Positions 3,367 through 64,000 of a stretch of 64,000 bases of DNA are shown here, piece after piece. Below the pieces are notes generated by a model. That model had not been told where the DNA came from and ran no database searches. It was given only the letters and a program-made list of their open reading frames with translations. The first letter of the stretch is position 1; each line of letters opens with the position of its first letter. The position numbers were made by a program, and so were the translations under genes. The stretch spans positions 35,643,484-35,707,483 of the forward strand of contig CM059197.1 in assembly GCA_030323885.1 (NCBI GenBank). Reading direction: 5' to 3'. The DNA comes from Branchipolynoe longqiensis. Lineage: Eukaryota > Annelida > Polychaeta > Phyllodocida > Polynoidae.

Positions 3367-4105
3367 TTAAAGGTGCATAGTCAGATGCTTTTGAGTTTAT
3401 GCCATATTTTTTTAACAAATCAATTATGGTGCTGTCACATTATTATGCTTCTCGCCAACGCGCGTTGACGTATGTGATTTTTTGGTGGAACGTCGGGATA
3501 CGTCAGGAAGCGTTACGCGTGCGTTACGTGTGCATTACACGCACGTTGGTACTCCTTGATGGACGGCGACGGTCGGTGAGCATCAGGGTATGAGTGAAGT
3601 TTTGTGCTTGCACAAAACTTTCGGCGTGCGACAACGCGGGGGTGCTAACATTATGGCGATGTTAGGGGGGCATCGAGATACGTTAAACGCGCTGTAATAA
3701 CGTTATGCAAACACTAGGCACATGCTGCACGCGCGTGAGGCTCGTTGCGCCAAACTGTTGCTTTGTTTGTTTATTGTTGTTTTACGTCCTAGCAACATCT
3801 AAGGTCATATCAGGACGGCGTGCCAAACCTTTTTTTTTTTTCTTACAACGTCAGCCGCACGCTACCAATACGTGGCGCTGATGCCAAAAGGTTTGGCATT
3901 TCTCGATGATTAAAAGTGATTTTGCGTGTTGGCGGCGCGCTGGCGAGAAGCGTCGTAATGTGACAGGCCCATTAGGTTGATGTTATTCCTTTTGAGCAGT
4001 GCAAAACCCTCTTGCACTTAAATTTGCATAATCCGATGGTTTTGATTTGATGCCATATTTTGGGGGATAAATATATTAGGTTCGATGTTATTCCTTTTGT
4101 GCAGG
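3367..4105 (+). mobile_element. K-element 5' units in tandem, interrupted by a MITE
   Basis: A TTAA (3367-3370) precedes 'aggtgcatagtcagatg', the K-element TIR. After about 54 bp the unit is interrupted by a MITE (3427-3971), then resumes 'ttaggttgatgttattcc'. A second unit starts near 4017 ('aaatttgcataatccgatgg') and a third near 4385, so about 100-bp 5' ends lie head to tail. Confidence 0.65.
3427..3971 (+). mobile_element. Harbinger-like MITE, family F1 (545 bp)
   Basis: Terminal inverted repeats start TGGTGCTGTCACATTA and end TAATGTGACAGGCCCA, and the pairing continues inward ('cttctcgccaacgcgc' against 'gcgcgctggcgagaag'). TTA at 3424-3426 and 3972-3974 is the TSD, and an uninterrupted paralogous site ('atatattaggttcgatgtta') sits at 4073-4092. 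A 24-bp palindrome lies at 3597-3620 and a SINE-A tail at about 3770-3828. No transposase is encoded. Confidence 0.9.
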
Positions 4106-4375
4106 ACAGGACAGACTGGATGGCCGAATGAGTTCAGCTGAGCGTCCGTCTCCCATTCTGGTAGATCGTGGGATCGTGGGTTCTAATCCTGGTGGAGTCA
4201 AAGCAATGACTTAGAAATTGATTCTTGTCGTTTCCTAGCCTGGACCTTGGCATTATTAGGATAGGACAAGGAGCAGTGGGAGGAGGAAGACCAATCGTCC
4301 ACGATTGAAAGAAAAAATGTCCTCTGCTTAATCAACTAATCTACCAAAAAAAACACCAAAAAACAAAACAGGATC
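4106..4375 (+). mobile_element. SINE family A' (alternative 3' tail)
   Basis: The tRNA-like head ('gactggatggccgaatgagtt') and first body part match SINE A up to 'aggataggacaaggagcag'. From there the sequence switches to 'tgggaggaggaagaccaat...tccacgattgaaa...' and ends in an A-rich run. The same switch occurs at 13846-14065 and 36208-36470. It sits inside a K-element unit. Confidence 0.8.
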
Positions 4376-4560
4376 TTTTGCACATAAAGTTGCATAATCC
4401 GACATATTTAAAAAAAAAGAATTATGAGGCTGATGATTACGATCTACTTAACTTTAGTTTAAAGTAACATTTTAATTTTAGAATTAACTCTGGATATATT
4501 TGAAGTGAACACTTGTAAGATGTAAAATCATTTACCGAATCATGAAGCAAGTTTCACTGC
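4376..4560 (+). mobile_element. K-element fragment
   Basis: 'cataaagttgcataatccgac' is the K TIR. 'ttaactttagtttaaagtaac' and 'atatttgaagtgaacac' match the internal K sequence at 22335-22400. Confidence 0.6.
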
Positions 4561-4611
4561 ACCAAACACCGGAAATGTTGGCTACCGGAGAAGGGTATTC
4601 TATTCCCTGCA

Positions 4612-4878
4612 ACGTGCACAAATCCTGGCCGAGTCAAACCAGACTTATATAATTGACTCTTGCCACTACCAGATTGCCTGATGCTCGATATTACTAGCAT
4701 AGGTCAAGGACTGGTAAAGTGGCCCAGTGTCAAGATAAGGGAAATTGGATCATGGTGCCAGCTGTATGGTATTTCAGGAGGGTAGTACTATAAAGACGCA
4801 TGCACTGTATACAAGTGGGTACCACTCCTGAGATGACTTCAGATTAGGAGGTAAAATCACATACACGCATGCACACAC
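4612..4878 (+). mobile_element. SINE family A, old diverged copy
   Basis: It retains 'cgagtcaaacc', 'caaggactggta', 'atggtgccag', 'gtagtactataaag' and 'ggaggtaaaatc' in the right order, with many substitutions and no clear A-box. Confidence 0.6.
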
Positions 4879-4931
4879 CACCCAACGAACCAAGGCATAC
4901 AGGCTAGCAGGTATGTATTGCCGAGTCTTAA

Positions 4932-5672
4932 GGCTTGGTCACATACACGTTAGTGGACGTAGTTGAACGTAGTTGAATGTAGTTGAACATACCGGCATCC
5001 ATACTTCTCCTTGGTAATAATGTGGATGGGCCGTGAGTTCCGATTTAATCTTTGGACATGTTCGAAACAGTGCTACGTTAGGGGCTGAATTTGCATCCGT
5101 GATGGTAACATACTCTAGCGTGCTCTAGCATACTCTTGCGTGATCTAGTGTACTGTAGCGTACTTGGATGAAGCCCTGGTCACATAGCCATTAGTGGACG
5201 TAGGTGAACATAGTGGAGGCTAATGTAGTTGAATGTAGTTGAACGTACCGGCATCCATACTTCTCTTTGGTAATAATGTGGGTAGGCCGTGAGTTCCGAT
5301 TTAATCTTTGGACATGTTCAAAAGAGTGCTATGTTAGGGCCTAATTTGCATCCGTGCTGGTAACGCACTCTCGCATACTTTAGCCTACTGTAGTCTACTT
5401 GGACGAAGCCCTGGTCACATAGCCGTTAGTGGACGTAGGTGAACGTAGTGGAGGCTAACGTAGTTGAACGTACCAGCATCCATACTGTAACATATTTATC
5501 TATACCGTAATGTATTTATCCATACCGTAACGTATTTATCCATACCAAAACCTGCCATACCTTAACATATTTCAACATAGTTTAACATACTTACACCACG
5601 TTTGACCCGTGTTAGCCTCCACTACGTTCACCTATGTTCAACTACATTCACTAACGCGTATGTGACGGGCCA
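4932..5672 (+). mobile_element. Harbinger-like MITE, family F2 (741 bp)
   Basis: TIRs are GGCTTGGTCACATACACGTT and the complement of aacgcgtatgtgacgggcca, with TAA at 4929-4931 and 5673-5675. The interior is made of the word 'gtagttgaacgta' and its complement. A block of about 240 bp (from about 4995) is repeated at about 5235, including the half-palindrome 'tttggacatgttc' (5051, 5311) and an internal TIR-like 'aagccctggtcacatagcc' (5173, 5409). No ORF. Confidence 0.85.
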
Positions 5673-6055
5673 TAAGTTATAGATGGTAAATAGGAGATTT
5701 TGCTCGAGTCTCCCATATTGATGCTTTTGGTACACTCACAAAATAAAGCATAGGTATGGATAAAACAAGGAGTAGAGAAACCTAGGAAATCTCATAAGAT
5801 AGATAGATGCTCTAGCCATTTGAACCCCGATTACTGTACTAACAGTTTCTCGAGCAACTTCACCTGAAAAAATGTGCGGGTGATTTGTAGATAAAGAAGG
5901 CTCGATTGACTAAGGGAATATGGGTATATGGATGTATAGGTTAGAGAATTGAACATTTGAAGCTTCACAGGAAATCAAACAGAATTATACTTACAAGAAT
6001 ATGAACTTAAAGGGGAATAATCCGATGAAATTATATTTTCAAAATCAAGGTCCTG

Positions 6056-6362
6056 TTTTGGGAGATCGGGGATTCCGAACCCATGGGTTTGTGGGATCGA
6101 ACCCTGGTCGAGTCAAACTAATGATTTAAAAATTGACACTTATCGCTTCCTAGCCAGGCGCTTGGCATTATTAGGATAGGGCAAGGACTGGTTGGCTCAG
6201 TGTCAGGATAATGTGACGTAGTGGGATATCAGGTCATGGTGCTGGCAGCCCAGTGGGGCAGCACTATAAAGTCACCGTGAGTGCGCACTGTCACAAGTTG
6301 GTACTCGTCCTGATATGACCTTAGATGTTGCTAGGACGTGAAACAACAACAAACAAACAAAA
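6056..6362 (+). mobile_element. SINE family A, 5'-truncated
   Basis: It starts in the long variable arm of the tRNA-like head ('ttttgggagatcggggattc'), has the B-box 'ggatcgaaccctgg', the full body, and the tail 'acgtgaaacaacaacaaac'. 5676-6055 shows no recognisable feature. Confidence 0.9.
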
Positions 6363-7108
6363 CATCAAAGCCAAGGCGTCCCTGCCTAGATTTAATCATG
6401 CGGGTCCAATTTAGACACCAGTGCACTCATTCATCATTTCATTGGGGTTTCCCCCTTTAAGAACATTGCAGTTCACTAGCTTTGACATGACCTAGTTAAC
6501 ATAGTAATGCTGTATTACACTTGGCTTCAACTGCGCGCGCGCAGAATTTATGTTTGTGCACGCTTGCAGTTCAGATATCTCCAAAGCTGGCATTTACCAT
6601 CAAACTTATTTCCAGTAGGTTATAATTGGAAAACCTAATGTATTTAACTCTTTTAAAACCAACGGATTATGCAGCTAGAACATATAAGTTGGGGGCTGTT
6701 TAAAAAAAATATTTGTGCACATTTTTTGGTTCCTACCGTCAGGTATTAATATTAGTAAGACGCCCACCAGACGAAGCCCCACTCCGGAAGTGACCTAACG
6801 CGCAGGCGCGCCCCCTTGCGGATGAAAGATGCATGAGGGACACGGTGCCGATCAACACTTACTGGTCGATCTGTTGAGGGCACTTTACTAACAATTTACT
6901 AACTGTAGCAATTAAAATAGGTAAATAAAACATACCCCAGGTGAAAGCAAATTTCTCAAAGCGCCGTTGTTGTGAGAAACAGGGTCTCATACCTCGTGTT
7001 GATTAGATCAATAACCAATCACGTGACTAGTGGTTGATGCCTGTATGGGAAGCAAGCACTATGGGATTCTGGTGATTTCACCTACCCACCCTCCTTCTGA
7101 TATTTTGG

Positions 7109-7451
7109 GACCAGACGGGATGGCCGAATGAGTTAGAACGTCCGTCTCCCGCGTTGGTAGACCATGGTATCGTGGGTTCGAACCCTTGTTGAGTCAAACC
7201 AATGACTTACAAATTGAGACTTGTCTCTTCCTAGCCAGGCGCTCGGCATTATTAGGATAGGGCAAGGACTGGTTGGCTCAGTGTCAGGATAATGTGACTG
7301 AGTGGGATATCAGGTCATGGTGCTGGTGTCCTGGTCTCCCAGTGAGCCAGCACTATAAAGTCGCCATGAGCACGCACTGTCACAAGTCGGTACCCATCCT
7401 GATATGGCCTTAGATGTTGCTAGGACGTAAAGCAACAACAAACAAACAAAC
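7109..7451 (+). mobile_element. SINE family A, full length
   Basis: The head 'gaccagacgggatggccgaa' contains the pol III A-box, and 'ggttcgaacccttg' is the B-box. The body and 'acgtaaagcaacaacaaac' tail are intact. 6363-7108 is otherwise unassigned, with a GC-repeat 'tgcgcgcgcgcag' near 6531 and a possible K-element end at 6655-6675. Confidence 0.92.
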
Positions 7452-8067: not shown

Positions 8068-8112
8068 GCTGCTGCCTAATATGTGTAACCTGCCTTTGTT
8101 TCTTGGGATCTT

Positions 8113-8170: not shown

Positions 8171-8180
8171 GACTGGCTGC

Positions 8181-8524
8181 GACCAGACGGGATGGCCAAA
8201 TGAGTTGAGCGTCCGTCCCCTGTTTTGGGACATCCGGGGACCTGAACGCATGAGTTAGTGGGTTCGAACCCTGGGCGAGTCAAACATTGATACTTGTCGC
8301 TTCTTAACCTGGTGCTCGGCATTAATAGGATAGGGCAAGGACTGGTTTGCTCAGTGTCAGGATAATGTGACTGAGTGGGATATCTGGTCATGGTGCCAGT
8401 GGCCTGATTTCCCAGTAGGGCAGCACTATAAAGTCGCCATGAGCGCACACTGTCACAAGTCGGGACTCATCCTGATATGACCTTATATGTTGCCAGGACG
8501 TAAAACTCCAACAACCAACTAACC
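8181..8524 (+). mobile_element. SINE family A, full length with long variable arm
   Basis: The head runs gaccagacgggatggccaaa, then 'tgttttgggacatccgggga' (long variable arm as in a class II Leu/Ser-type tRNA), then B-box 'gggttcgaaccctgg'. The tail is 'acgtaaaactccaacaacc'. Confidence 0.92.
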
Positions 8525-8730
8525 ATCTTTGGTCATGTCAGGGGCAGGTACCAAAACTTGTGACAGTGCACACTTCTGGCGACTTTTATTTAGTGCCCAG
8601 GCCACCAGCACACATTATCCTGATATTAAACAAACCAGTCCTTGTCGATTAATGCCGAGTGCCTGGCTAGGTAGCGACAAGTATAAATTTTGCTTGGTTT
8701 GGTTTGACTCGGTCGGGGTTTGATATGTCT
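8525..8730 (-). mobile_element. SINE family A, truncated at both ends
   Basis: Body in reverse ('ggtcatgtcaggggcaggta', 'cttgtgacagtgcacact', 'atgccgagtgcctggctagg', 'tttgactcggtcggggttt'), immediately following an opposite-strand copy. The tRNA head beyond the B-box is missing. 8731-8770 is an (ATGTAT)n stretch. Confidence 0.8.
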
Positions 8731-8913: not shown

Positions 8914-8932
8914 GTAATGTGTAATGTATGTA

Positions 8933-9656: not shown

Positions 9657-10061
9657 AGGCTCTGTCCCACCTCACCGGATTGGGGAAACAGAAAGAAACC
9701 GAACAAAGTCCGGTGGAATATGTCAATGTCCGGTTTCTATACGGTCAGCATCCTGCGTTTCCGTTGTGTGTCCGGTGGTGTCCGGCATCTACGGTGGCAA
9801 GTTTTGAACATGCACAAAGCTTGGAATGGATGCCGCCGGATTGACATCTACGGTTCTTGTCCGTTTTGAGTTTGTTTAATCCGCTTATTGTCCTTTGGCT
9901 ATCCGTTCATGTACGTTTAATGTTCATTTGTCTGGCGGCCTTTGACCCGATATCGCAACATTTTGACACATTTTGATACATTTTGATAGTTATCCCGCCC
10001 GAACACCGCCAGACTAGAAAATTCTGTCCGTTGCTCAATCCGGCATAGTGTAACAGGCACT
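9657..10061 (+). mobile_element. Harbinger-like MITE, family F3, copy 1 (405 bp)
   Basis: TIRs are AGGCTCTGTCCCACCTCACC / complement of 'ggcatagtgtaacaggcact', with subterminal 'cggattggggaa' against 'ttgctcaatccg'. Flanks are TCA (9654-9656) and TAA (10062-10064), a decayed 3-bp TSD. A palindrome lies at 9799-9822. The interior is rich in 'gtccg' words. It ends only 30 bp before the candidate exon. Confidence 0.85.
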
Positions 10062-25470: not shown

Positions 25471-27560
25471 GTGTGTGTGTGTGGTGCGTGTTGTGTTTGT
25501 GTGTTGTGTGAGTAGTGTGTGTGGTGCATGTTGTGTGTGTGTGTTGTGTGAGTAGTGTGTTTGTGGTATGTGTTGTGTGGAGTGTGTGTTGTGTGTGCGG
25601 AGTGTTGTGGTGTGTGTGTGGTGTGTGTGGTGCATGTGTTTGTGGTGTGTGTTGTGTGGTTTGTGTGTTGTGTGTGCATAGTGTTGTGGTGTGTGTTGCA
25701 TGTGTTTGTGTGTGTGGTGTGTGTGGTGCATGTGTTTGTGGTGCATGTTGTGTGGCTTGTGTGTTGTGTGTGCGTAGTGGTGTGGTGTGTATTGTGTGTG
25801 TGGTGCATGGGTTTGTGTGTGTGGTGCATGTGTTTGTGGTATGTGTTGTGTGGTGTGTGTGTTTTGGGTGCATAGTGTTGTGGTGTATGCATGGTGTGGG
25901 TGGTGTGTGTGTTTTGGGTGCGTAGTGTTGTGGTGTATGCATGGTTTGGGTGGTGCATGTGTTTGTGTGTGGTGTGTGTGGTGCAGGTGTTTGTGGTGCA
26001 TGTTGTGTGGTGCATGTGTTGTGTGTGTAGTGTTGTGGCATGTGTGTGGTGTGTGCCGTGCATGTGTTTGTGTGTGTGGTGCATGTTGTGTGTGCATAGT
26101 GTTGTGGTGTGTGCATGGTATGTGTGGTGGATGTGCTTGTGTGTGTGGTGTTTGTGGTGCATGTGTTTCTGGTGTGTGTTGTGTGGCGTGTGTGTTGTGT
26201 GTGCATAGTGTTGTGGTGTGTGAGTGGTGTGTGGTGCATATGTTTGTGTGTGGTGTGTGTGGTGCATGTGTTTGTGGTGTGTTTTGTGTGGTGGGTGTGT
26301 TGTGTGTGTAGTGTTGTGGTATGTGAGTGGTGTGTGTGGTGCATATGTTTGTGTGTGCGGTGTGTCTGGTGCATGTGTTTGTGGTATGTGGTGTGTGGCA
26401 TGCATGTTGTGTGTGCATAGTGGTGTGGTGTGTGCATGGACTGTGTGGTGCATGTGTTTGTGTGCATGGTGTGTGTGGTGCATGTGTTTGTGGTTCATGC
26501 TTTGTGGCATGGGTGTTGTGTGTGCATATTGTTGTGGTGTGTGGTGCATGTGTTTGTGTGTGTGGTGCATGTGTTTGTGGTCCATGGTGTGTGTGGTGTG
26601 TGTTGTGTGTGCGTAGTGTTGTGGCATGTGAGAGTTGTGTGTGGTGCATGTGTTTGTGTGTGTGGTATGGGTGGTGCATGCGTGTGTGGTGTGTGTGGTG
26701 CATGTGTTTGTGGTGTGGTGTGTGGTGTGTGGCATGTGTGTTGTGTGTGCATAGTGGTGTGGTGTGTGTGTGGTGTGTGGTGCACATATTTGTAGTTCAT
26801 GCTGTGTGGCATGCGTGTTGTGTGCGCATATTGTTGCGGTGGGTGGTGCATGTGTATGTGTGTGCGGTGCATGTGTTTGTGGTCCATGTTGTGTGTTGTG
26901 TGTTTGTGTGTGGTGCATGTGTTTGTGTGTGTGGTGCATGTGTTTGTGGTCCATGTTGTGTGTTGTGTGTGTGTTGTGTGTGGTGCATGTGTTTGTGTGT
27001 GTGGTGCATGTGTTTGTGGTCCATGTTGTGTGTTGTGTGTGTGTTGTGTGTGGTGCATGTGTTTGTGGTGCATGTGTTTGTGGTCCAGGTTGTGTGTTGT
27101 GTGTGTGTTGTGTGTGGTGCATGTGTGTGTGTGCGGTGCATGTGTTTGTGGTCCATGTTGTGTGTTGTGTGTGTTGTGTGTGGTGCATGTGCATGTGCGT
27201 GTAGTGTGTACAAATGTGTGGTTTGTTTGTTGCAGTTTTATGTCCTGGCAACATCTAAAGTCATATCAAAATGTTTGTGGTGTATGATCGTGTGTGGTGT
27301 GAGCGTGGGTGTGGTGTGTATAAGCGTGTGCATGTACATGTGGTGTATGAGTGTGCGTATGGTGTGTGCATGTGGTGAAAGTGTATGCAGTGTGTGTGTA
27401 TCAAGTGTGTGTCTGGTGTGTCCATGTGCATAAGGCTGTATGCAGTGTGTGTGAGTGTGTCAAGTGTTTGTGAATGTATGTATGTGGCGTATGTGGTGTG
27501 TGTTGTGTGTGTTGTCTGTGTAGTGTGTGTAGCCTGTGCATGTTGTGTGATGGGCGTGTT
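25471..27560. repeat. G/T-strand array ('gtgtggtgcatgtgtttgtg' family)
   Basis: About 2.1 kb in which the + strand is nearly all G and T with regular 'gca' interruptions, built from degenerate 'tggtgcatgtgtttgtg' words. Larger units of about 55-90 bp repeat (e.g. 26930-27180). Frames of up to 614 codons on the minus strand (His/Thr-rich) and 368 on the plus strand (Cys/Val-rich) follow from composition. A SINE-A tail interrupts it at 27222-27272. Confidence 0.92.
27222..27272 (-). mobile_element. SINE-A tail fragment inside the G/T array
   Basis: 'gtttgtttgttgcagtttta' + 'tgtcctggcaacatctaaagtcatatca'. Confidence 0.85.
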
Positions 27561-28345: not shown

Positions 28346-28713
28346 AGCGGCCATCACACCTCGTCAGATTGGGGGAAACGGAAAGAAACCAAACAAAGTC
28401 CGTTGATAGTCCGGTTTGTGTCCGTACAAGTTTTGAACATGCACAAAACTTGGAATAGATTGACGTCTATGGTTCTTTTCTGGTTTGAGTTTGTCATGTC
28501 CATTGGCTACCCGTTCATGTCCGTTCGATGTCAATGTTATGTCCGTTTCATGTCCGTTTCATGCCCGTTTCATGTCCGTTCGTCCAGCGGCCTTTGACCC
28601 AATATCGCAACATTTTGACACATTTTAATACATTTTGATACTTATGACGCCCAAACACCACCGGACTAGACAAATCTGTCCGTTGCTCAATCCGGTGATG
28701 TGTGACAGTGGCT
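28346..28713 (+). mobile_element. Harbinger-like MITE, family F3, copy 2 (368 bp)
   Basis: Ends AGCGGCCATCACACCTCGTC and 'gatgtgtgacagtggct', TSD TAA (28343-28345, 28714-28716). The palindrome is at 28428-28451. The interior has 'gtccgtttcat' repeated four times near 28540-28580. 27986-28345 is otherwise unassigned. Confidence 0.92.
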
Positions 28714-31821: not shown

Positions 31822-32286
31822 TACCCCAGTCACATGAGGCCTGCATTCGCTTACGATCGATTCGCGATGTCAAAATGTCCTCCTTGCGCCCTCCTTATGC
31901 CCTCATTGAGTGCTGTCGCCACAAGGACGCCAACCTACCGGCGTCCATTTTGGAAATTTTGGACGCAAGGAGGTTGCTGCTGCTGCACGTGCAACCTCCT
32001 TGCGTCCTGTTCCGGCGGCGCCATTAAACACTGGTTGGCGACCTGGCGCCGCCCTGATGCAGCCCTGGCGCAACCCCGGCGCTGATATGGCGCCGCCCGG
32101 CGCTGATACAGCGACAGCCCGGCGACAAGCTGGCGCCGCCCTGGCGCCACCCTGGGGCCTCCCTGGTGCCACCATGGCGCTGACCACATATTTGAATCAA
32201 TGTATCGAATGGGGCGCTGGGAGGTTTGCATCCTTTTGAGCATAAGGAGGTTGGCGGCGAACGCTGGCTCTCGTGTGACTGGGGTA
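31822..32286 (+). mobile_element. Harbinger-like MITE, family F5, copy 1 (465 bp)
   Basis: TIR TACCCCAGTCACATGAG / complement of 'ctcgtgtgactggggta', TSD TAA (31819-31821, 32287-32289). A perfect 17-bp-arm hairpin lies at 31961-32007 (arms ggacgcaaggaggttgc / gcaacctccttgcgtcc). The interior is (CTGGCGCCNCC)-rich. The 109-, 102- and 94-codon frames are GC artefacts. Confidence 0.93.
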
Positions 32287-32830: not shown

Positions 32831-32859
32831 TTAGTGTTGTGTGTGTGTGGGGGGGGGGG

Positions 32860-37075: not shown

Positions 37076-37146
37076 AGTATGAATGCCGCTTCTTACCGTT
37101 TCTATATGGTATTGAATCACAGCCACTACTGAAGTCCTGACGGGTC

Positions 37147-37673
37147 TGGTCTGTCACACTACGATGTATCTCGCCGGCGTGCCGCCAACGCTCAAAATTA
37201 CTTTTAATCGTCGAGAAACGTCAAACTTTTCGGCATGAGCGCAACGAATTGGTAGCGTGCGGACGACGTTGTGAGAAAAAAAAAAAAAGTTTTGCGTGCC
37301 GTCCTGATATGACCTTAGATGTTGCTAGGATGTAAAACAACAGTTTGGCGCAACGTGTGGGAACGACCCTCACACACACGCGGTGTCTGCCTAGCATTCG
37401 CATAACGTTATTCCAGCGATGTCAACGTGCTTCTGACGTCGCCATAATATTGGCACCCGTGCGTTGTCGCGCGTGGTTGCACGTCGATAGTTTTGTGCAA
37501 GCACAAAACTTCGCCGATACCCTGACGCACGTCGGCGATCGTCGTCGTCCATCAACGATTACCAACGCGTGCCTAACGTGCGCGTAACGCTTCCAGACGT
37601 CTCTCGACGTTTCGCCAAAAAGTGACACATGTCGACGCGCGTTGGCGAAAAACGTCGTAATGTGACGGCACCA
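37147..37673 (-). mobile_element. Harbinger-like MITE, family F1, copy 2
   Basis: Inverted copy of 3427-3971. The palindrome is at 37489-37511 and the same captured SINE-A tail at about 37297-37346. The right flank is TAA; the left TSD is lost (GTC). 37674-37990 is unassigned except for a G-rich patch at 37835-37905. Confidence 0.88.
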
Positions 37674-38506: not shown

Positions 38507-39257
38507 TTGTGGTGCAACCTGTCCATTTACGCGTCAAATGGTTGCGCAACCCACATTCACTATGTGTGTTTTGGTAGTCCTTATTAATGTAGCTCACTGT
38601 CATATATATATATATGTGATGTAATAATCTTTTTGTCTGTTGTAACAATTGACACAAAACAGCACAGAAACAGTTACGCTGAAAACACAAGAACATTTGC
38701 TTCAAATCAATATGTATTCTATTGGGATTATGAAACACCATGTAAAAAAGAAAACAGTTTGTCCTGAGCAAATGCATAATGGGGCTATCACACTATGGCA
38801 TATGGTGTAAGCGTATGCCGGTGTAATGGTTTGCGTCACATACGCCATCATACACCGTCATATGCTACGCATACGCTACGCATACGCTACGCATACGCTA
38901 CGCATACGCTATGCATACGCTACGCATACGCCATATGTGCGCAGTTTACCCCATCATACGCATGTCCGTCCGAACATTTTCGTGCATGCTCAAAATTGGC
39001 AGCGTATGGCAGTGTAAGGCTCATACGCTGCTCATACGCTATGTATACGCTATGGATACACCGGCATAGGTTACACATAGGTTAGGGGTATGCCGGCATA
39101 GGTTATGCGTACGCTGAAATGGATGTCTATAGCGTATCTATAGTGTATATAGCATATGCCTAGCTTACATGTAATGTTTTTGAGCATACTCCTAGCATAT
39201 TCACAGCGTATACAAAGCGTATGTGCAGCGTATGCCCGGCCTATGGTCTCGGTATAT

Positions 39258-41997
39258 GATGTGCGAAAAGGAAGAAGGCAAGGCGGGGGTGGGAAAAAAC
39301 AGAGGCGTTTATTGAGGCGCCTCTGGCAACAGAGGGGGTAAACAGGGCACAGTAGAGGCTCAGGAGGAGCAGGTAGAAGGTACATGGAAGGTAAGGCTCA
39401 TGAGGAGCAAAACGAACAAGAGAATCTATAACAGGGGCTCATACGGAGCAGAGGTAAAAGTTCATGTGAGGGGAGGGGGCGCCGAGGAGCCCTCCACCAG
39501 CTGAAAGGGAAGAGAAAAAAGGAAGAGAAAGATGGGTGGGTGGGTGGAGGAAAAAGGGCAGCGTGGAGGAGGGCTGGAAGGCGAGTGACTGAGAGAGGCC
39601 GGCGGGCGGCCTTATAAGGGAGGGCAGGAGGGCGGTGACAGGTGAGGTGCGAAAGCAAGGCGGGGGGAGGGGGAGGAAGAAAGCTGAGAGGCGGGCGTCG
39701 CGCGAGGTGAGAATGCTGCGCGACGACCGGGGAGGCGGGGGGAGGGTCTCTTCCTCTCCACACATCAAGCGCAATGCTTCGCATTACGACCGATGTGCGA
39801 AAAGGAAGAAGGCAAGGCGGGGGTGGGAAAAAACAGAGGCGTTTATTGAGGCGCCTCTGGCAACAGAGGGGGTAAACAGGGCACAGTAGAGGCTCAGGAG
39901 GAGCAGGTAGAAGGTACATGGAAGGTAAGGCTCATGAGGAGCAAAACGAACAAGAGAGTCTATAACAGGGGCTCATACGGAGCAGAGGTAAAAGTTCATG
40001 TGAGGGGAGGGGGCGCCGAGGAGCCCTCCACCAAAGCGGAGGAGAGGGCTCGAGGCGCGCCCGAGGGGGGGGGCGAGGCGGGGCACATGTGCGCGCACCG
40101 CCTCAGAGGTCAGGTTCCCTGGTGGGCGGCGAGTGTCCGGGGCCTACGTCGACAGGGAGCGGGCGGCCAAATAGCGAGGAGGCCCGCTCCTTGGAGAGAT
40201 CCGGTGAGGAGGTCCGGCGAGGGTCGAGCAGGGGGGCAGCGAAGTCCTCAGGGCTGGGTGGGGTGGGGGTCGGGGTCGGGTCAGGAGGGTTGACGAAGGC
40301 GGTGTCGTGAAGGTCGGCGGCTGTGCTATCGGAAGAGGGTTCCTCGTGAGGCTGGGCTGGGCTGTGGTCTGAGGCGTGAGGTGCGAGGTGATGATCCCCG
40401 GCTCTGACTGGGCGGCGCTTCGATCGGTGGTCGCTGGGGGGGTTGTCGGTGGAGGTCGCGGGGCTGTCGGCAGTGGTGAGGGTGAGGCACCGGGGAGGGC
40501 CCCCCGGGCCGGCCGGGGGGAGGCCGGTGGATCAAAAATCTGCCGAGGCGGCGGGGGTCTGGCGCTCACGGGCTTGTTTGGTTATGCAGCCGGCCTCGCT
40601 GTGCATGGTGAGTATGCGCCGCACGTTGGCGCAGTAGGCGCACACGTGCCGGCGCCTGTCCCCCGCCTCGCCGTGGGCCTCCCCGACGGGGGCCCGATCG
40701 CACGAGGCGGGGTCTCGGTTCCAGGCGGGGCAGGGGGCCCCGTGGGTCTGCCTATCGTATGCGATGCGGGTGTCGACTTGGGCTCGGGGCAGGTGTGCGC
40801 CTCGGGGAGGGTCGTCACCTCGGGGGACCGCTGCTGCCGGGGCGGCCTGAGGGGCGGGCAGGGTGAGGGTCTCCACCCTCAGGAGGTCGAGGGCGACCGG
40901 GTCGTGCCACCCCTGGGGGAGCCTCCCGTCCGCTATCCAAGAGAACACCGTCTCGGAGTAGCGGCGGACGGTCGGCCAGGGGTAGAGGAGGTTGTCCCTC
41001 AGTACGGTGAGGTGATGGTGGCGTAGGCCCTGGACGGAGTGGGCTGGGAAGTTGGGGTGGTCGATGAGGGTGAGAAGGGCGAGGCTGTACTCGTCTTTCG
41101 TTGCCTCGCCCCTCTTCACTGGCTTCCTCTCGGGCCCCCTCTCCACTAGGTCTGAGGGGAAGATGTAGTCCCTCGGAATGCCTTGGCGCCTCACGGAGTG
41201 CCGCGCCTCGGCGGAGGCCAGTATTTCCCGTACGGCGTCGGCTGCGGAGGCTGGGGTGTGCTGGGTCGGCTCTTCGTAGTAGGCAGGCGGGGGGGCAGGG
41301 GCGGCTCGGCTGGCGAGGTGGTGGTAGCGCTCGTAGATGGGGTGTGCTGCCCCCGGCAAGGTCGCCTGAGGGGGCGGCGGGGGCCGGGCCCCGGCCGGGG
41401 CGCGCGCCCGAGGTGCCGGGGCGGGCCCGGTGGTGTAGGCGGCCTGGCGTCTGGGTGCAGGTGAGAGCGTCTCCGGCGGGGGGCCGGGCCTCCCCGGCCT
41501 CCAGGGCTTCCATATGGGCCTCCATGCGAGCGGCGGTCTGGCGCTGCTCGGTCTGTAGACGCTGGAGGGCCTCCAAGATCGCCGACGTCTCGGCGCCCGA
41601 GGTGCGGTCCGAGGGCGCCGAGGGGGACGCCGGGGCCGAGGAGGTTGAATCGTCCCGTCGCGAGGACGGTCCCGGGGTGGCCAGGGCGGTCGTCCGGGAG
41701 CCCTTGCGGCCCTTTCCTTTTCCTTGTCCTGGCATGATGGCGGCCTGAGGCGTTGCAGCGGTCCGAGGTGGAGTCGGCGTGGTGGAGAGCCAAACAGGAA
41801 AAAGGGCAGCGTGGAGGAGGGCTGGAAGGCGAGTGACTGAGAGAGGGAGGGCAGGAGGGCGGTGACAGGTGAGGTGCGAAAGCAAGGCGGGGGGAGGGGG
41901 AGGAGGAAAGCTGAGAGGCGGGCGTCGCGCGAGGTGAGAGGCGGGGGGAGGGTCTCTTCCTCTCCACACATCAAGCGCAATGCTTCGCATTACGACC
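39258..41997 (-). mobile_element. DIRS/Ngaro-like retrotransposon, internally deleted, with split direct repeats
   Basis: Read on the minus strand the order is A1 (41997-41797), ORF region (41796-40034), B1 (40033-39792), A2 (39791-39549), B2 (39499-39258). B1 and B2 are both 242 bp and nearly identical. A2 is 243 bp and A1 201 bp; A1 lacks two blocks of about 20 bp, one with the TATA-like 'cttataagg'. B carries AATAAA (minus strand, about 39307-39312). This layout is diagnostic for DIRS-superfamily tyrosine-recombinase elements rather than LTR elements. Only a gag-like frame remains. GC content is far above the flanks. A1/A2 do not directly abut TG...CA ends. Confidence 0.7.
40532..41735 (-). 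pseudogene. gag-like ORF of the DIRS-like element, frameshifted
   Basis: The likely start (41735) has a good context (A at -3) and opens with MPGQGKGKGRKG, a Ser/Thr-rich linker and a coiled-coil candidate (ILEALQRLQTEQRQ...MEALEAGEA). Between about 41500 and 41350 the coding frame changes, and the downstream half is carried by a 482-codon frame ending at 40532. That half has IYERYHHLASRA, PRDYIFPSDLVERG, a conserved-looking LRDNLLYPWPTVRRYSETVF block and a C-terminal Cys/His cluster (C417, C427, H445, C447, C450, H460, C465 of that frame; core HVCAYC). I recall this organisation from gag-like proteins of DIRS/Ngaro-type elements. It would bind element RNA. RT, RNase H, methylase and tyrosine recombinase are absent. 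Frames overlapping it on both strands are GC-driven shadows. Confidence 0.6.
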
Positions 41998-42402
41998 AAA
42001 GGCGCCGCAAGGCTTCTTCTGTCAGTCCGGCTCTGCTGTTCAGATACCATACGCTTTTCATACGTCACACATATGCCAGCATATGTTACTCATACGCTAC
42101 TCATACGCTACTCATACGCTACTCATAAGCTACTGATACGCTCATACGCTAGGCATAGGTCGCTCATACGTTACGTATACACTCAACCTGCCACTCATAA
42201 CTGTCAAACCACATCAAAGTACGCCGCACATACATCGGCTTACGCTTCTCATACGCCGTTATACGCTAGGGGTAGGTTATGCATAGGTTACGCATATGCT
42301 CCAAAAGACACGTCAGTGCACAAAGGTCACCGCAACGTTTTTCAAATTTTTGCGGTAGGTTTTACATACGCCGCCGCCATATGGCGTAATGTGACAGGGC
42401 CA

Positions 42403-46677: not shown

Positions 46678-47079
46678 AGGCCCTGTCACACTGTGCAGTA
46701 TTGCATCAGCGTATGCCAATGTATGTGATTTTGCGCCAACACGTTGGTGTATGCTTGTGTACGCTGGTGTACGCTGAGACAAGTTATGGTTACATTTGGC
46801 ATAAGTAGTAATCATTAACAGCCAGCTGATGAATGCTGAGACAAGTTATGGTTACATTTGGCATAAGTAGTATTCATTAACAGCCAGCTGATGAATGCTG
46901 AGACAAGTTATGGTTACATTTGGCATAAGTAGTATTCATTAACAGCCAGCTGATGAATGCTGAGACAAGTGATGGGTACGTTTGGCATAAGTAGTATTTT
47001 TGATCATGTTAAAAATTCCCACCATATGACGGCATGTGTCACATACGTCGGCATACGCTTATGCAGTGTGACAGGGCCT
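46678..47079 (+). mobile_element. Harbinger-like MITE (F4-related) with internal 62-bp tandem array
   Basis: Perfect 16-bp TIR AGGCCCTGTCACACTG / cagtgtgacagggcct, TSD TTA (46675-46677, 47080-47082). Subterminal 'cagcgtatgcc' and 'ggcatacgctta' relate it to F4. 46773-46998 is 3.6 copies of a 62-bp unit (gctgagacaagttatggtta...). The palindrome-like ATTTTTGATCATGTTAAAAAT is at about 46996-47016. Confidence 0.95.
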
Positions 47080-47844: not shown

Positions 47845-48109
47845 TAGCCCTAGTCACACTATGGCTTGCGACTGCTTGTGACAAATTTGCGACCACTTTG
47901 GACCAAAGAAGCCACCTCATTGCGACCAAAGTAACGGTCACCGCCCTCTGAGCGACCATTTTAGTCACAAGGAGGTATTTAGTGCACAAGCTGCAACCTC
48001 CTTGCAACTAAAAAAATCGATGACCACTGAGAACCACTTTGCGACGACCTTGCAAGGTCCCCTTTTTTGTGGTCGCAAAATGGTCGCAAGTAGTAGTGTG
48101 ACTGGGGTA
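47845..48109 (+). mobile_element. Harbinger-like MITE, family F5, copy 2 (265 bp)
   Basis: TIR TAGCCCTAGTCACACTA / complement of 'tagtgtgactggggta', flanks CTA/CAA. The interior is built from 'gcgacca'. A hairpin with arms caaggaggt...acctccttg (47968-48005) parallels the F5 hairpin at 31961-32007. Confidence 0.85.
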
Positions 48110-54122: not shown

Positions 54123-54694
54123 AGCCCATGTCACACCTTACCGGATTGACCAACGGACATAAACCGGACAAAGAATTGTCTAGTCTGGTGGTGTCCGATG
54201 TCAAAATGTATCGAAATGTGTCAAATTGTTCCGCTATCGCGTCAACAGATGCTGGACGAACGGACATGAAACAGACATGAACCGGATATGAATGGATAGC
54301 CACCGGATGATAACCAGACAACAACCGAATGTCAAATGGATGTACCGGACTGATCACGGACACGCCGAAAACATATATTGACCGAATTCCCGCAACACCG
54401 TCAACAGACACTGCAGGAAGCAAACTAGAGATGTAACGGATGGGTACTGGACATGAGACGGACAAAACAGACTAAACGGTCTTAAACCGCACACCAACCA
54501 TACACGTCAGTCTGGTTGTGTCCGGTACAAGTTTTGTGCATGTTCAAAACTTGCTACCGTACACACCGGACACCACCGGAGAGAGAATGGACACGCCGGA
54601 TGAGTACCGTATATAAACCGTAAATTGCCGTATTTCACCGGACAGTGTCCGGTTTCTGTCTGGACCCTCAATCCGGTGAGGTGTGACTGGGGCT
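54123..54694 (-). mobile_element. Harbinger-like MITE, family F3, copy 3 (572 bp)
   Basis: Ends AGCCCATGTCACACCTTACC and 'ggtgaggtgtgactggggct', exact TTA TSD (54120-54122, 54695-54697). Palindrome at 54529-54552. The 139-codon minus frame is made of 'ccggac/gtccg' words. Confidence 0.94.
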
Positions 54695-56466: not shown

Positions 56467-56961
56467 AGGTCCAGTCACATACATGTTAGTGGACGTAGTT
56501 GAATGTAGTGGAGGCTAACGTACTTGAATGTAGTTGAACATAGTTGAACGTACCAGCACCCATACTTCTCCTTGGTATTAACGTGGGTGAGCCTGAGTTC
56601 CGATTTAATCCCTAGACATGTTCAAAAGAGCACTATGTTAGAGGCTGAATTTGCATATGTGATGCTAACATACTCTAGCGTGCTCTAGCATGCTTGAACG
56701 AAGCCCTGGTCACATAGCCGTTAGTGGACGTAGGTGAACATAGGGGAGGCTAATGTAGTCGAACGTACTGGCATCCGTACCGTAACGTATTTACCCCTAC
56801 CGTAACATATTTATCCGTACAGTAACATCTGTACCAAAACCTGCCCTACCTTAACGTATTTCAACATAGTTTAACATACTTACACCACGTTTGACCTACA
56901 TTAGCCTCCACTACGTTCACCTACATTCAACTACATCCACTAACGTGTATGTGGCCGGGCA
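56467..56961 (+). mobile_element. Harbinger-like MITE, family F2, copy 2 (495 bp)
   Basis: Ends AGGTCCAGTCACATACATG and 'cgtgtatgtggccgggca', TSD TAA (56464-56466, 56962-56964). Unlike copy 1 it has only one 'cgatttaatc..tagacatgttcaaaag' block, but also carries the internal 'aagccctggtcacatagccg' (56702). Confidence 0.9.
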
Positions 56962-59160: not shown

Positions 59161-59164
59161 TTAT

Positions 59165-59390: not shown

Positions 59391-59435
59391 TTCGTACCCA
59401 TGCAAGTTTTTTAAATGGTTTCCGTCAATAAGGTT

Positions 59436-60296
59436 GTAGAATGGCTAAAGCTCAAATCTGGTGGTTGTGTAGGCAGGCTATAGTGACATCAATACAGACA
59501 AAGAGAAAGGAAGAGTATAAAGTGTGAAAGAAGAGAGAGAGTCAAGCCCTCTGGTTTATTATTTATATGGTCCATGGATTCAGTGTAGAGTATCACACCA
59601 CCCTTTTTCCCCAATGGGAAACAAGCGTTCTTAGCTCTACCAATAGGGATCCAGCATTCCTGGTCCCCATGGTTATCAGTGATCTGCCCACCACCACCAA
59701 GCTGTGTGGCTCAACTGGCCACCACCTGGCTTGAGCCTGAGTGTGGTGATCCTACCTGGCAGAGGGGGGAGGGGGTAGGCTCTGAGTGCACCTTAAGCCG
59801 TGTTTACACGGGAGAGTTAAATCGCTTCATATAAATCGCCTTGCCTAGTTTGCCTCACATTCGCCGTGTAAACGCGACTCTGAGGCGGCTTAGGGCTGAT
59901 TCGCTTCATATGATTCACTTTATGTAAACCACCTTGCGAGGTGGTTTATATGAAGCGATTCAGCTGGTTCCTGGGCGGCGACTAAACAAATAGTAGTACT
60001 CGCCGGCTACCGGCTCACTAAGGCTGCTGGTTCCCGGCGCCGACACACTTTCAAACTCTGTCCGTGTAAACGCGCCACTACTTCGCTTCATATAAATCGC
60101 TTTGTCTAATTCGCTTCACAATTCCCCGTGTAAACACGGCTTTACACGCAGTCTTGCCAGCACCATTATGTCTATTTACATCCCACTCAGGCACCACCAG
60201 CGGCTACATATACACATACAATCACCTGGTCATGTATACCCGATCAGTAATAGAACATTTGCATTCCCCCCAATGCCGTAAATCGGAATATTTTAC
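59436..60296 (+). mobile_element. TIR element 'D', copy 2, carrying a nested MITE
   Basis: Ends GTAGAATGGCTAAAGC / complement GTAAAATATTCCG. Flanks AAGGTT and AAGGTC suggest a 5-bp TSD AAGGT. It is interrupted at 59793 by MITE F7. Confidence 0.88.
59796..60141. mobile_element. Harbinger-like MITE, family F7 (346 bp)
   Basis: TIR AGCCGTGTTTACACGGG / 'cccgtgtaaacacggct', exact TSD TTA (59793-59795, 60142-60144). The uninterrupted site 'gagtgccccttacatacagc' is seen in D copy 1 at about 14737. A hairpin AAACCACCT...AGGTGGTTT lies at 59926-59946. The interior is built from 'ttcgcttcatataaatcgc'. Confidence 0.97.
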
Positions 60297-60348
60297 AAGG
60301 TCTTTACTGCTTATGAATACTATTAAACATGTACAGGTAATGCACTTA

Positions 60349-61019
60349 TAGGCCTGTCACACTATGATGTAAGGAGGTAACGTAAGCCGACGTAGGTGAC
60401 ATTTCGTCATTACGTTGAGGTACGTCGAGTTACGTCATGCTTACGTTAGACTGACGTCGAATTATGTCAAGTTACATCAGGCTACGTCGAGTTACGTCAG
60501 AGCGCGCTGAGGTTTTGGACATGTTGAAAACTTTTTACGTAGCTCGACGTGATGCTGTGACGTTCAGGTGACGTTACACTCACGTTACGCCAAAGTTGCG
60601 CGTGCGGGAGGGCTGCGTCGGCTACGTTAGATCAACATTGTGTTCTGTCATTGTGACGCACAGGGAGGAGGACTTTGCGGCTCACGCCGGCGACGTTGAC
60701 CTGACGCCAGCCTCTCGGTTGCCAGATATCGACTCACGTCGGGGAAAACGGTTGTGTCGGACGTGACAACGTTAAGCAATGCTAAGCGGCCCCTACTGTC
60801 ACGCTGGGGTTTCGCAAGCCTCACATTTACATAATATATAATTCCTTTGACCTCTCTCGTTGGCACGACGCTATACCGATGTTACGCTCACGTCCACTAC
60901 GCGGCATTGACGCCCATCTTGGCCACGTATTTGCATATTACGTCAAGATTTTCGATATGTTAAATTTATTTTCACATTGGACCTACACTGGCGCGTTACG
61001 TCGTAGTTTGACAGGGCCA
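60349..61019 (+). mobile_element. Harbinger-like MITE, family F6 (671 bp)
   Basis: Ends TAGGCCTGTCACACTATGAT and 'tcgtagtttgacagggcca', TSD TTA (60346-60348, 61020-61022). The interior is built from 'ttacgtcgag'. A palindrome occurs at about 60510-60533 (ggttttggacatgttgaaaac). Confidence 0.92.
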
Positions 61020-61139
61020 TTACGTATACATACACAGGGTAGGTTCAACAACCATACACCGTATATCTTGTACAACTAAAAGATCCTGGTCATGCGTACC
61101 GGCACCAGGCAGGTGACCCAGACAGAGGGAACATTGTGC

Positions 61140-61292
61140 ATAGTGTATAGAGCAGGATTCAAACCCACATATCTGGCCCTTTGGTGGGATAGTGTCCAAA
61201 CCAGTAGTCTATCTAGGCTCCCTGATTCAATCACTCTACCCACGCCTACCTCTCTACATGGCTGCTTACCAGGGAGGTTAATGCGGCCTAAT
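61140..61292 (-). mobile_element. SINE family 3
   Basis: 'caggattcaaacccacatat', 'ccagtagtctatctaggctc', 'cacgcctacctctctacatg'. Confidence 0.65.
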
Positions 61293-61765
61293 CCAGTAGA
61301 TAATCTTATTTTCTTTGTATGTCTTCGACATATATCATCCTGGAACGTCAAGGACGCTATCAGTGAGATGGGTGCCCTTTATCACTGCGGTGCATCTGGT
61401 TCTACCTAATTGCTGTGTAATGCGTAAGAATTGTGCCTGATTCATTGGGGGGGGGGGGGGAGACGTCGCCACAGCTTTCCTCTTCCCCTCCATCCAGACT
61501 CTCGCCTTGCAAACTCACGCCCACATGATCAGAATGCTCCGCCGAGGCGCCCCCTACCACCTCCTCCTAGAACTCCCCACTCGGCTGCCGCTACACCAGA
61601 ATTTCTCCAGTAGCCGAGCGGACAACTTCACTCTTCCACCCACCAACCCGACTTGAGACTCTCTACAATTTGCTGTATTAATCACCTTTTTCTGTATTAG
61701 TGACGGTAATCGCTTTAAACCACTGTACTCGCTCACTTGACCCCTAGGGTTTGAACACTCTTTAC
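61293..61765. other. No gene recognised
   Basis: Unique sequence with a G14 run at 61447-61460 and a C/T-rich stretch at 61480-61620. Confidence 0.5.
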
Positions 61766-62634
61766 GGCAATATGTTTGTTTGTTGATGTTTTACATCCTA
61801 GCAATATCTAAGGTCATATCATGATGGGTACCGACTTGTGACAGTGCACACTCATGGCAACTTTATAGTGCTGCCCCACTGGGAAATCAGGCCGCCAGCA
61901 CCATGACCTGATATCCCACTCAGTCACATTATCCTGACACTGAGCGAACCAGTCCTTGCCATATCCTAGTAATGCTGAGCGCCAAGCTAGGAAGCAACAA
62001 GTTTACATTTTTACATCATTAGTTTGACTCGACCAAGGTTCGAACCCACAAACTCATGGGTTCGGATCCCCCGATCTCCCAAAACAGGATTAAAATATTC
62101 CGATATACAGCATAGGGGGGAATGCAAATGTTCTCTTACTGATTGGTGTACATGACCAGGCGCATGTATGTATATGTAAGGGCTGGTGGTGCCTGAGTGG
62201 GATGTAAATACACATAGTGGGGTTGGCAGTTCTGAGTGTGAGGGCACTCAGGGCCTACCCCCTCTGCTGGGATAGTGATCGCCACACTCAAAGGTCAAGG
62301 TTGGTGGTGGCCATGGGGCCATACAGCTTGGTGGTGGTGGGCAGACCACTGGTAGCCATGGGGACCAGGAATGCTGGATTCCTATTGGTAGGGCCAAGAA
62401 TGCTTGTTTTCCATTGGAGGAAAGGGGTGGGGTGATACTCTACAATGAACCCAAGTAACAATATAAATAATAAACCAGAGGGCTTGACTCTCTCTTCTTC
62501 TTTATACTTTATACTCTTCCTTTCTCTTGGTCTGTATTGATATCAATATAGCCTGCCTACACAACCACAGATTAGAGCTTTAGCCATTTTACAAGGAGAC
62601 GGACGCTCAACTCCTTCTGCCACCCGGTCTGGTC
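61766..62634 (-). mobile_element. SINE family A split by TIR element D
   Basis: 61766-62089 (tail to variable arm, 'ccgatctcccaaaacagga') continues at 62593-62634 ('aaggagacggacgctcaact'...'cacccggtctggtc'). The interruption is D copy 3. Confidence 0.9.
62090..62592 (-). mobile_element. TIR element 'D', copy 3 (503 bp)
   Basis: Reverse copy of 59436-60296 without the F7 insertion. Flanks cagga (62085-62089) and aagga (62593-62597) support a 5-bp TSD. Confidence 0.9.
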
Positions 62635-62919
62635 TTTACGGCAATAAACACTCTTTACCTCCACTCCGCCTCCGTCTTCTACTTTTGCGAATCAGAGAAC
62701 CTAATTAGTCAAATGCAGTGGTCATGTTGGCACCATCATGCATAATTCATTGATACCATTATATAACCTTAGCTACGATCGATTATTACATGTCCATTTT
62801 TATCCAATCAGCTCTTTAAAAGTAGGTCACATTGACGTCGTTCATATACGTCACGTTGGTTTTGAGTCTGAAACATTTTGTATAATAAATATATTTTAAT
62901 GATCAATTTTGTTTTATAA

Positions 62920-63402
62920 TATATATATATATATATTAGGTCGATTGTTATACAGTAAACTCTGTCTAAATCGAGCGACCATGGGACCGACTTTAAATGG
63001 TCCATTTAGGGAGGTAGTCGGTTGGGGGAGGTTTTTTTTAATCGTTACAATGGTATTGTATCGGCGACCCTTTGGGACCCAAATAAAGCGATCGATATAG
63101 AGGAGTGGTCGATCTGTGGAGATATTTGGTTAGACAGGTTGTACTGTAATCCATTTCATCTTGGTTTGAAGTAACTCGTATTCTAAAGGGTTATTATTAT
63201 CTGATTGTCTTTTTTTAATTGTTTTTTTAAATAGATATTTGATGTGGAAACGTTTAACTAAATGTCTTGGTCTTCAAACCGAAATGCTTTGCTTGCATCA
63301 TAGATTTCAGTATTAACAGGTTCTATTAGATTGTCTTAGCGTTCCTTCTGATGTGGTAATTAATGACCTTTTGATGCGCGCACCAGTATCTAAGTTGGAC
63401 AT
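62920..63402 (+). mobile_element. K-element body fragment containing a pogo-like MITE
   Basis: 'atattaggtcgattgtta' and, after the insert, 'atccatttcatcttggtttgaagtaac', 'aacaggttctattagattgt', 'gcaccagtatctaagttgg' follow the K sequence of 22310-22550. 62635-62919 is unassigned (CCAAT-like 'atccaatcag' at 62797, TA run at 62920-62936). Confidence 0.75.
62953..63146. mobile_element. pogo/Tc1-mariner-like MITE (194 bp), TA TSD
   Basis: CAGTAAACTCTGTCTAA against complement CAGTACAACCTGTCTAA, flanked by TA at 62951-62952 and 63147-63148. The host K sequence is continuous across it. Confidence 0.88.
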
Positions 63403-63403
63403 G

Positions 63404-63550
63404 TGACCAGACGGGATGGCCGAATGAGTTAGAGCATCCATCTCCCGTGTTGGTAGATCGTGGGCTCGTGGGTTCGAACCCTGGTCGAGTCAAACCGATG
63501 ACTTAACAATTTATACTTATCGCTTCCTAGCCTGGCGCTCGGCATTATTA
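63404..63550 (+). mobile_element. SINE family A, 3'-truncated
   Basis: 'gaccagacgggatggccgaa', B-box 'gggttcgaaccctgg', stops after 'ggcgctcggcattatta'. 63551-63878 is unassigned. Confidence 0.9.
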
Positions 63551-63881
63551 ACTGCAAAATGTTGGATCAGACTGGTTGGATCAGTCGTTGGTCGACTTAT
63601 CTTCTATGGTTACTAAGACAGTGTCGCCAATATGCTGCAACTAATATGCTATGATATATGAAGGCAATAACAATTAATGCTGTATTTACCGTTCCATATA
63701 TTGGCCTTCTTATTGCAATTAAGAGGCATCATCAACGGCTCATATGAGCTCGTATATTATCACCAACAATGTCGGATGAAAATGTTCGCACCAGTGGGTG
63801 GTGAAAAAAAAAAAGGGTGATGGCAACTTTTAATAATTTGCACCATGTACGAATATCTCTCAGTAGTGATGATGCTATTTA

Positions 63882-64000
63882 AAGGGCTGTCATACTGCAG
63901 CATATGGCGGTGGCGTACACGTAACGTGGAGGAATAATTTGAAAAACGTTATAGGTCGAGATAAGCTGACCTTTGTGCACTGTGGGAGGTCCCAGTGGCA
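63882..64000 (+). mobile_element. Harbinger-like MITE, family F4, left end (runs off window)
   Basis: AAGGGCTGTCATACTGCAGC after TTA (63879-63881). 'gcatatggcggtggcgtac', 'aatttgaaaaacgtta' and 'tgacctttgtgcactg' match the right arm of 38780-42402 in reverse. Confidence 0.88.

Follow-up and report, generated by a model that had tools for sequence, protein, structure and literature searches.

Why do transposable elements whose interiors appear to be unrelated carry the same short palindrome? The question is raised by a stretch of 64,000 nucleotides from the polynoid annelid Branchipolynoe longqiensis (assembly GCA_030323885.1, contig CM059197.1, positions 35,643,484 to 35,707,483 of the forward strand; hereafter the window). 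A preliminary description had recognised at least seven families (F1-F7) of miniature inverted-repeat transposable elements (MITEs) in it. Our analysis confirms that the super-group, with its shared ends, TWA target sites (TTA or TAA) and off-centre palindrome, is real, and that it extends far beyond the window. Judging from the sequences, we see about an even chance that these elements are MITEs of the PIF/Harbinger type in which an asymmetric palindromic site for the recombinase adjoins a phased repeat array.

The window elements have the properties of MITEs: they are ~264-741 bp long (F4a is longer owing to an insert), bounded by terminal inverted repeats (TIRs), non-coding and present in high copy number. 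Identical TTA or TAA flanks, i.e. target site duplications (TSDs), were found in 10 of the 13 complete window elements (F1a, F2a, F2b, F3b, F3c, F4a, F4b, F5a, F6 and F7), while the flanks of F1b, F3a and F5b were not identical. The termini of F1-F6 are variants of (A/T)GGCCCTGTCACA, and the terminus of F7 is AGCCGTGTTTACACGG. Both the duplications and the common F1-F6 terminus of the preliminary description are thus borne out. Genome-wide, 40 matches were scored for each of F1, F2 and F5a (window copy included) out of 3771-6819 first-look candidates. Apart from the window copy, they had 79-87% identity to the query and almost all spanned nearly its whole length; for the 39 other scored matches of F1a the identity was 83-87%. 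Among the genomic elements, 14 of 29 had identical TWA flanks and 28 of 29 had TWA on at least one side. An empty site was also found: a MITE at locus L065, near a transposase gene, is missing from the related copy L066.

The palindrome, AAGTTTTGNNCATGNNCAAAACTT, is 24 bp long with 20 fixed bases, and consists of two AAGTTTTG half-sites flanking the 8-bp spacer NNCATGNN. We read it as a candidate protein target with two half-sites, located near one end of the element only. With at most two mismatches, six matches were found in the window (F1a, F3a, F3b, F1b, F3c, F6), all within the listed MITEs, compared with none in 20 Markov-1 shuffles. With at most five mismatches there were ten, again all within MITEs (two in F2a and one each in F4a and F4b were added), compared with a shuffle mean of 0.45 and a maximum of 2. 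Three further matches had exactly six mismatches, a number in line with chance (~3.9 expected), and one of these lay in an element. The palindrome of F2b differs at eight positions. The six strong sites agree to a base with the palindromes described earlier for F1, F3 and F6, and the weaker ones agree within a few bases with those described for F4 and F2.

The 1.85-Gb genome contains 11,231 exact copies of AAGTTTTGNNCATGNNCAAAACTT, whereas the reversed pattern does not occur at all. We inspected 36 exact sites at 35 consecutive loci of contig 1, of which 29 were flanked by two recognisable ends; the other seven (L022, L028, L036, L040, L046, L054, L056) lacked an acceptable end pair and were dropped from the arm analyses. 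In 40 elements, the distance between the palindrome centre and the nearer end was 73-216 bp; a position about 80-200 bp from one end had been noted for the window. The off-centre placement is present genome-wide. All 20 fetched copies of F1 had the palindrome with small changes at most. A recognisable derived palindrome was present in all 20 fetched copies of F2; 15 of these had an unchanged core TTTGGACATGTTCAAAA, and the outer arms differ. The far arms, i.e. those beyond the palindrome, contained no second one: their best matches averaged 8.6 mismatches, compared with 8.8 in shuffles, and the lowest had 5. No palindrome match was found in viral contigs, and an Rfam search gave nothing at gathering scores. 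A single match in a prokaryote contig lies within an apparent bacterial murG gene (by eye) and was taken as chance. A possible likeness of some spacers to p53-type half-sites was also considered.

How far the interiors are related was studied by global alignment of the arms without the end motif, with z values calculated against dinucleotide-preserving shuffles. The elements fall into a group A (F1, F6 and the genomic elements L026, L042, L065 and L077, joined more weakly by F4a and F4b) and a group B (the F3 subfamilies), while F2 stands alone and F5a and F5b match nothing above z 3.5. Arms of F1 and F6 compared directly gave z values of 2.2-5.5, but the two families are joined via the alignable genomic intermediates L042 and L026 (F1-L042 9.8-13.1; L042-F6 4.3-6.7). 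The link of F4 to group A is weaker (F4a-L026 4.0-5.6; F4a arms versus L026 and F6 overall 1.7-5.6; F4b-F6 near arm 5.1-5.3; F1-F4 directly ≤1.4). Hence, the interiors described earlier as unrelated are related inside group A, where the palindrome can be put down to common descent. For comparisons between A, B and F2, the earlier statement essentially stands. With one exception, arms of A and B gave z values of -2.5 to +2.7, and other values above 3 between lineages were few (F5a-L034 far arms 3.4-3.5, F5a-F1a far arms 2.1-3.1, F2b-F3c far arms 2.2-3.2). The palindrome is nevertheless identical in both groups, which upholds the earlier claim of a common palindrome in elements with essentially unalignable arms. 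That 20 fixed bases are identical where the similarity of the A and F3 arms is nearly beyond detection is hard to explain without constraint during the diversification of the families.

A common architecture lies behind these apparently unrelated interiors: the bodies of F1-F6 are built as arrays of degenerate units of 10 or 11 bp. Self-matching at lag 10 was strong in the near arms of group A (z 12.6), in F2 (14.2) and in F4b (6.0), and at lag 11 in the far arms of group A (16.2), in F4a (11.2), in F5a (5.1) and weakly in F5b (3.0). Group B matched itself at lags 10 and 11 in both the near arms (8.0 and 9.0) and the far arms (16.3 and 20.9). At the better lag, z values ranged from 5 to 21 across A, B, F2, F4a, F4b and F5a, while control DNA of the window showed no such peak. 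The repeated word is family-specific, for instance CCGGA in F3 and CATACGC in F4a (by eye). Between the arms, words are enriched in direct as well as in inverted orientation, which rules out the palindrome as an axis at which word orientation flips.

The spacing between the end and the palindrome is quantised. The gap between the end motif GTCACA and the palindrome fits a period of 10.1 bp in 37 elements (R 0.76; reached in 0 of 1000 simulations), and group B alone does likewise (n = 25). Genome-wide, the motif and the palindrome occurred together at 1250 places with gaps of 65-94 bp, 2631 with 95-124 bp, 2972 with 125-155 bp and 1276 with 156-185 bp, compared with zero in each range for the reversed control. 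Together these make 8,129 places (~660 expected with equal bases); the number of distinct sites may be lower, since a site with the motif on either side enters the count twice. For each range, the first 100 places listed were examined; these lie on contig 1, are not a random sample and belong mostly to a few subfamilies. Among these 400 places, 311 had a gap of 8, 9 or 0 modulo 10, compared with 30% expected (75, 83, 80 and 73 in the successive ranges), and peaks of at least five places stood at 69, 78, 88, 109, 119, 129, 141, 149, 159 and 170 bp. In the 125-155 list, the phase was common to both groups (23 of 30 in A, 55 of 65 in B), with labels assigned from the first 13 letters and 5 of the 100 rows unclassified. 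Genomic copies are related, so that counts of this kind are not independent. Total element length showed no lattice (p 0.84). Neither the 10-11-bp repeat structure nor the quantised spacing had been recognised in the preliminary description.

Between related near arms, indels of at least 6 bp cluster at 9-11, 20-21, 32 and 41 bp, as counted over 261 non-independent near-arm pairs and dependent on the alignment. Gain and loss of whole units is therefore likely the direct cause of the gap lattice.

Which transposase could mobilise these elements? TWA duplication is a hallmark of PIF/Harbinger elements, as described in passages of PMC4482050, and was found in both the window and the genomic elements. 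Because of these duplications and their general form, F1-F6 probably belong to this superfamily. The 3-bp TWA duplication disagrees with the 2-bp AT duplication of ISL2EU, and the 3-bp TAA and TTA with the TTAA of piggyBac; both were rejected. DDE transposases (PF13359) are abundant in the genome, with 150 scored among 5154 first-look candidates. The preliminary description had proposed a search for a PIF/Harbinger transposase with the same TIRs, and for F7 a partner was found: F7 matches the terminus of the transposase-bearing element L079 at 78% over 100 bp (one L079 end was identified), and its termini also match the L079 relatives L078 and L076. L079 has a 314-aa open frame over PF13359 and a 135-aa open reading frame (ORF) on the opposite strand. 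Together with the flanks L084 and L085, L076 and L079 show a weak 14-bp periodicity like that of F7 (lag 14 was highest in four stretches, at 2.3-3.1 sd). Apparent partners of other families were rejected. At L065 and L077, the matching ends belong to nested MITEs, and at L071 and L074, which are 99% identical over 3.2 kb, only a 55-bp terminal fragment of F1 (~2265-2319) lies beside the transposase frame.

The reading that we prefer can be stated as follows. The elements would be non-autonomous PIF/Harbinger-type MITEs of at least three lineages, sharing the catalytic end (A/T)GGCCCTGTCACA. The palindrome would sit at the inner end of the near-arm array. Most likely it would bind a dimer, either of the transposase or of the partner protein, and mark one end as different from the other, with the words of the array as accessory sites for the same transposition machinery. 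Length changes between copies would tend to involve whole units, so that the palindrome would mostly keep its helical face relative to the end. A stricter version, which we regard as doubtful, treats the near arm as a molecular ruler that holds a palindromic dimer site an integral number of helical turns from the recognised end. If true, the words turn over almost completely between lineages while neither the helical phase (8, 9 or 0 modulo 10) nor the palindrome is lost, and one genome would hold a helical-twist experiment of nature in thousands of copies. MITE interiors are usually treated as filler, and here a 24-bp site survives near-complete turnover of its surroundings in thousands of copies. 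This opens to test the idea that, in systems of the PIF/Harbinger type, the mobility and end asymmetry of MITEs are controlled by a conserved cis-site in the interior, and the copies provide a large natural data set on the spacing rules of transposition complexes.

Several observations weigh against the preferred reading. Whole-unit indels alone can produce the lattice, and one-base indels were the commonest between near arms (342). The far arms have a lattice of 11.1 bp (R 0.52, p 0.001), which follows their own unit rather than the helical repeat. Group A alone showed no significant gap period (n = 12, p 0.43), the F2 gaps (103 and ~127) are out of phase, and the repeat unit of F7 is 14 bp. 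Among 25 fetched PF13359 loci of the 150 scored (most taken to 1.5 kb per side, three extended by 2-4.5 kb), no transposase-bearing element had the GGCCCTGTCACA ends of F1-F6. Furthermore, the far arms of L026 (group A) and L034 (group B) are similar (z 3.8-3.9), and conservation of the palindrome in F1 copies does not clearly exceed that of the other positions of the element (0.983 versus 0.957 at non-CpG sites), 11% of F1 windows being at least equally conserved. The latter result and the alignable intermediates of group A, where descent alone can suffice, would suit a passive relic: all derived MITEs would have inherited part of an old operator or promoter from their autonomous ancestor, and it would no longer have a role in mobility. 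Outside group A, this explanation has to accommodate 20 identical fixed bases between A and F3 arms that are, apart from that one pair, nearly without detectable similarity, and we consider it unlikely.

The site might also act through its structure, as a DNA cruciform or an RNA hairpin, with its sequence secondary. F5a, F5b and F7 contain strong hairpins of other sequence, as described earlier (confirmed in F5a, detected in the window in F7, by eye in F5b). That of F5a is self-complementary at 40 of 47 positions, and an inverted self-match was present in 13 of its 40 scored genomic copies, window copy included; the hairpins of F5a and F5b lie at equivalent gaps of ~138 and ~99 bp, in phase with the lattice in these two cases. 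Within the palindrome, pair 13 alone changes in a paired way between the groups (C-G in 22 of 25 group B elements, A-T in 7 of 12 group A elements). The bases of the palindrome arms are otherwise conserved rather than covarying: across 37 elements, a sample biased because 29 rows were selected by exact match, pairs 5-12 hardly vary, while among the 25 F3-type elements of group B pair 4 is mismatched in all and pair 3 in 20. Double changes at pair 10 number 187 genome-wide, compared with 11,231 canonical sites, and one of the three whose letters were seen was complementary. The compensatory changes proposed as a check are thus largely lacking within the arms of these 37 elements. Conserved arms with little compensatory change favour a protein-dimer site, and a structural role is in our judgement quite improbable. 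Similarly improbable is a role of the arrays and the palindrome in nucleosome positioning, or in the binding of a host protein that joins the ends or permits replication-linked amplification. The 10-11-bp periodicity and near arms of often ~150 bp would agree with such a role, and internal substitutions alter the mobility of mPing/mPong, for which the authors suggest nucleosome association in passages of PMC9921582. Yet the period within arms is an integer 10 or 11, as tandem duplication predicts, and gaps are common over the whole range of 65-185 bp. Exchange of arms between families by recombination at the palindrome, which would spread the palindrome, can explain why one near-arm cluster combines with two far-arm clusters (8 and 4 elements) and one far-arm cluster with three near-arm clusters (F3a and L033 among them). 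In contrast, similarities of near and far arms are correlated across 25 F3-type elements (Mantel r 0.53; 0 of 2000 permutations), which implies that the exchange suggested earlier is not the main process and makes it highly improbable as the explanation.

Each feature of the F1-F6 elements has a precedent, but we found no system combining all of them in the open-access literature, and no shared MITE palindrome of this kind was recognised there (Repbase lay outside the search). Drosophila FB elements have 10-, 20- and 31-bp repeats. For the systems below, our comparison refers to passages of the cited papers. PIF/Harbinger and Tourist-type MITEs share the TWA duplication, short TIRs and high copy number with the elements studied here, in a genome where PF13359 is abundant, while the terms palindrom- and subterminal are absent from the main text of the paper on PIF/Harbinger (PHIS) elements (PMC4482050). 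Medicago MtPH-A6-4 is a PIF/Harbinger element with subterminal, sometimes near-whole-body, tandem repeats of variable number, but these are 60-bp units with an internal triplicated motif in one subfamily, and those passages describe no shared palindrome (PMC2213677). The ends of piggyBac contain identical 19-bp palindromes at asymmetric positions that are bound by two transposase C-terminal domains (PMC11707139). Asymmetric near-end palindromes are thus common to piggyBac, piggyBat and our proposal, with dimer binding known there and presumed here (PMC11707139). In contrast to our elements, piggyBac belongs to a different superfamily with TTAA targets (PMC2872659), and in piggyBat an imperfect palindrome follows each left-end repeat motif (innermost bp 107-120), with no quantised array in those passages (PMC11707139). 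Internal tandem repeats in long ends also occur in the Foldback-like Galileo and Tetris (PMC3688188, PMC4079207). The Galileo repeats carry extra transposase-binding sites, but Galileo is of the P superfamily (PMC3688188), and the Tetris unit is ~220 bp instead of 10-11 bp (PMC4079207). The internal eliminated sequences of Paramecium are transposon-derived too, and their length periodicity (best fit 10.2 bp) is read as helical phasing in the excision complex; there, total length is quantised, whereas here it is the distance from end to palindrome, which whole-unit indels can explain (PMC3464196). Coral CMITEs have an internal region that is conserved across MITE families and proposed to be important for transposition, but they are ~100-bp elements of the TTAA/piggyBac type with a 75-base interior (PMC2872659).

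Table 1. Elements and palindromes in the window (mismatches relative to AAGTTTTGNNCATGNNCAAAACTT).
Feature	Position	Strand	Remarks
F1a MITE	3427..3971	+	TSD TTA; TIR TGGTGCTGTCACATTA / TGGGCCTGTCACATTA; group A
F1a palindrome	3597..3620	.	AAGTTTTGTGCTTGCACAAAACTT; 1 mismatch
F1b MITE	37146..37671	-	without intact TSD; group A
F1b palindrome	37488..37511	.	2 mismatches
F2a MITE	4932..5672	+	TSD TAA; internally duplicated
F2a derived palindrome, two copies	5047..5070 and 5303-5326	.	5 mismatches each
F2b MITE	56467..56961	+	TSD TAA; derived palindrome near 56607-56630
F3a MITE	9657..10061	+	flanks TCA/TAA, differing; group B
F3a palindrome	9799..9822	.	1 mismatch
F3b MITE	28346..28713	+	TSD TAA; group B
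F3b palindrome	28428..28451	.	exact
F3c MITE	54123..54694	-	TSD TTA; group B
F3c palindrome	54529..54552	.	exact
F4a MITE	38780..42402	+	TSD TAA; split by nested element at ~39258-41997
F4a weak palindrome	38975..38998	.	5 mismatches
F4b MITE	46678..47079	-	TSD TTA; weak palindrome 46995-47018 (≤5 mismatches)
F4c MITE	from 63882		truncated by window end
F5a MITE	31822..32286	+	TSD TAA; TIR TACCCCAGTCACA; without AAGTTTTG palindrome
F5a hairpin	31961..32007	.	centre at equivalent of 138-bp gap
F5b MITE	47846..48109	-	without intact TSD; hairpin 47968-48005 (by eye)
F6 MITE	60349..61019	+	TSD TTA; group A
F6 palindrome	60510..60533	.	2 mismatches
F7 MITE	59796..60141	.	TSD TTA; TIR AGCCGTGTTTACACGG; 14-bp repeat unit; separate TIR family; hairpin 59922-59951

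The element nested in F4a (39258-41997) is GC-rich and contains a 485-aa ORF on the minus strand. Its direct repeats are split and arranged as A1-ORF-B1A2-B2 (by eye), and it resembles a non-autonomous retroelement of the Ngaro/DIRS type. A Pfam scan of eight window ORFs, including this one, gave nothing above the family cut-off. The body of F4b (46790-46990) holds ~3.5 copies of a tandem repeat of roughly 60 bp (by eye).

Both F1 copies in the window (at 3764-3820 and 37300-37345) and the 20-copy F1 consensus contain a tail fragment of a short interspersed element (SINE), which implies that F1 was amplified after it had captured this fragment. Many copies of a tRNA-like SINE were seen in the window by eye (e.g. 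2940-3250, 6050-6360, 7110-7450 and 8185-8530). Its body holds CACTGTCACAAG, which agrees in part with the end motif of the MITEs, and the SINEs presumably resemble those of molluscs. Tandem-repeat tracts, recognised by eye or via ORF translations, occupy 1430-2280, 25500-27280 and 32850-35460, with strong GC skew in the latter two.

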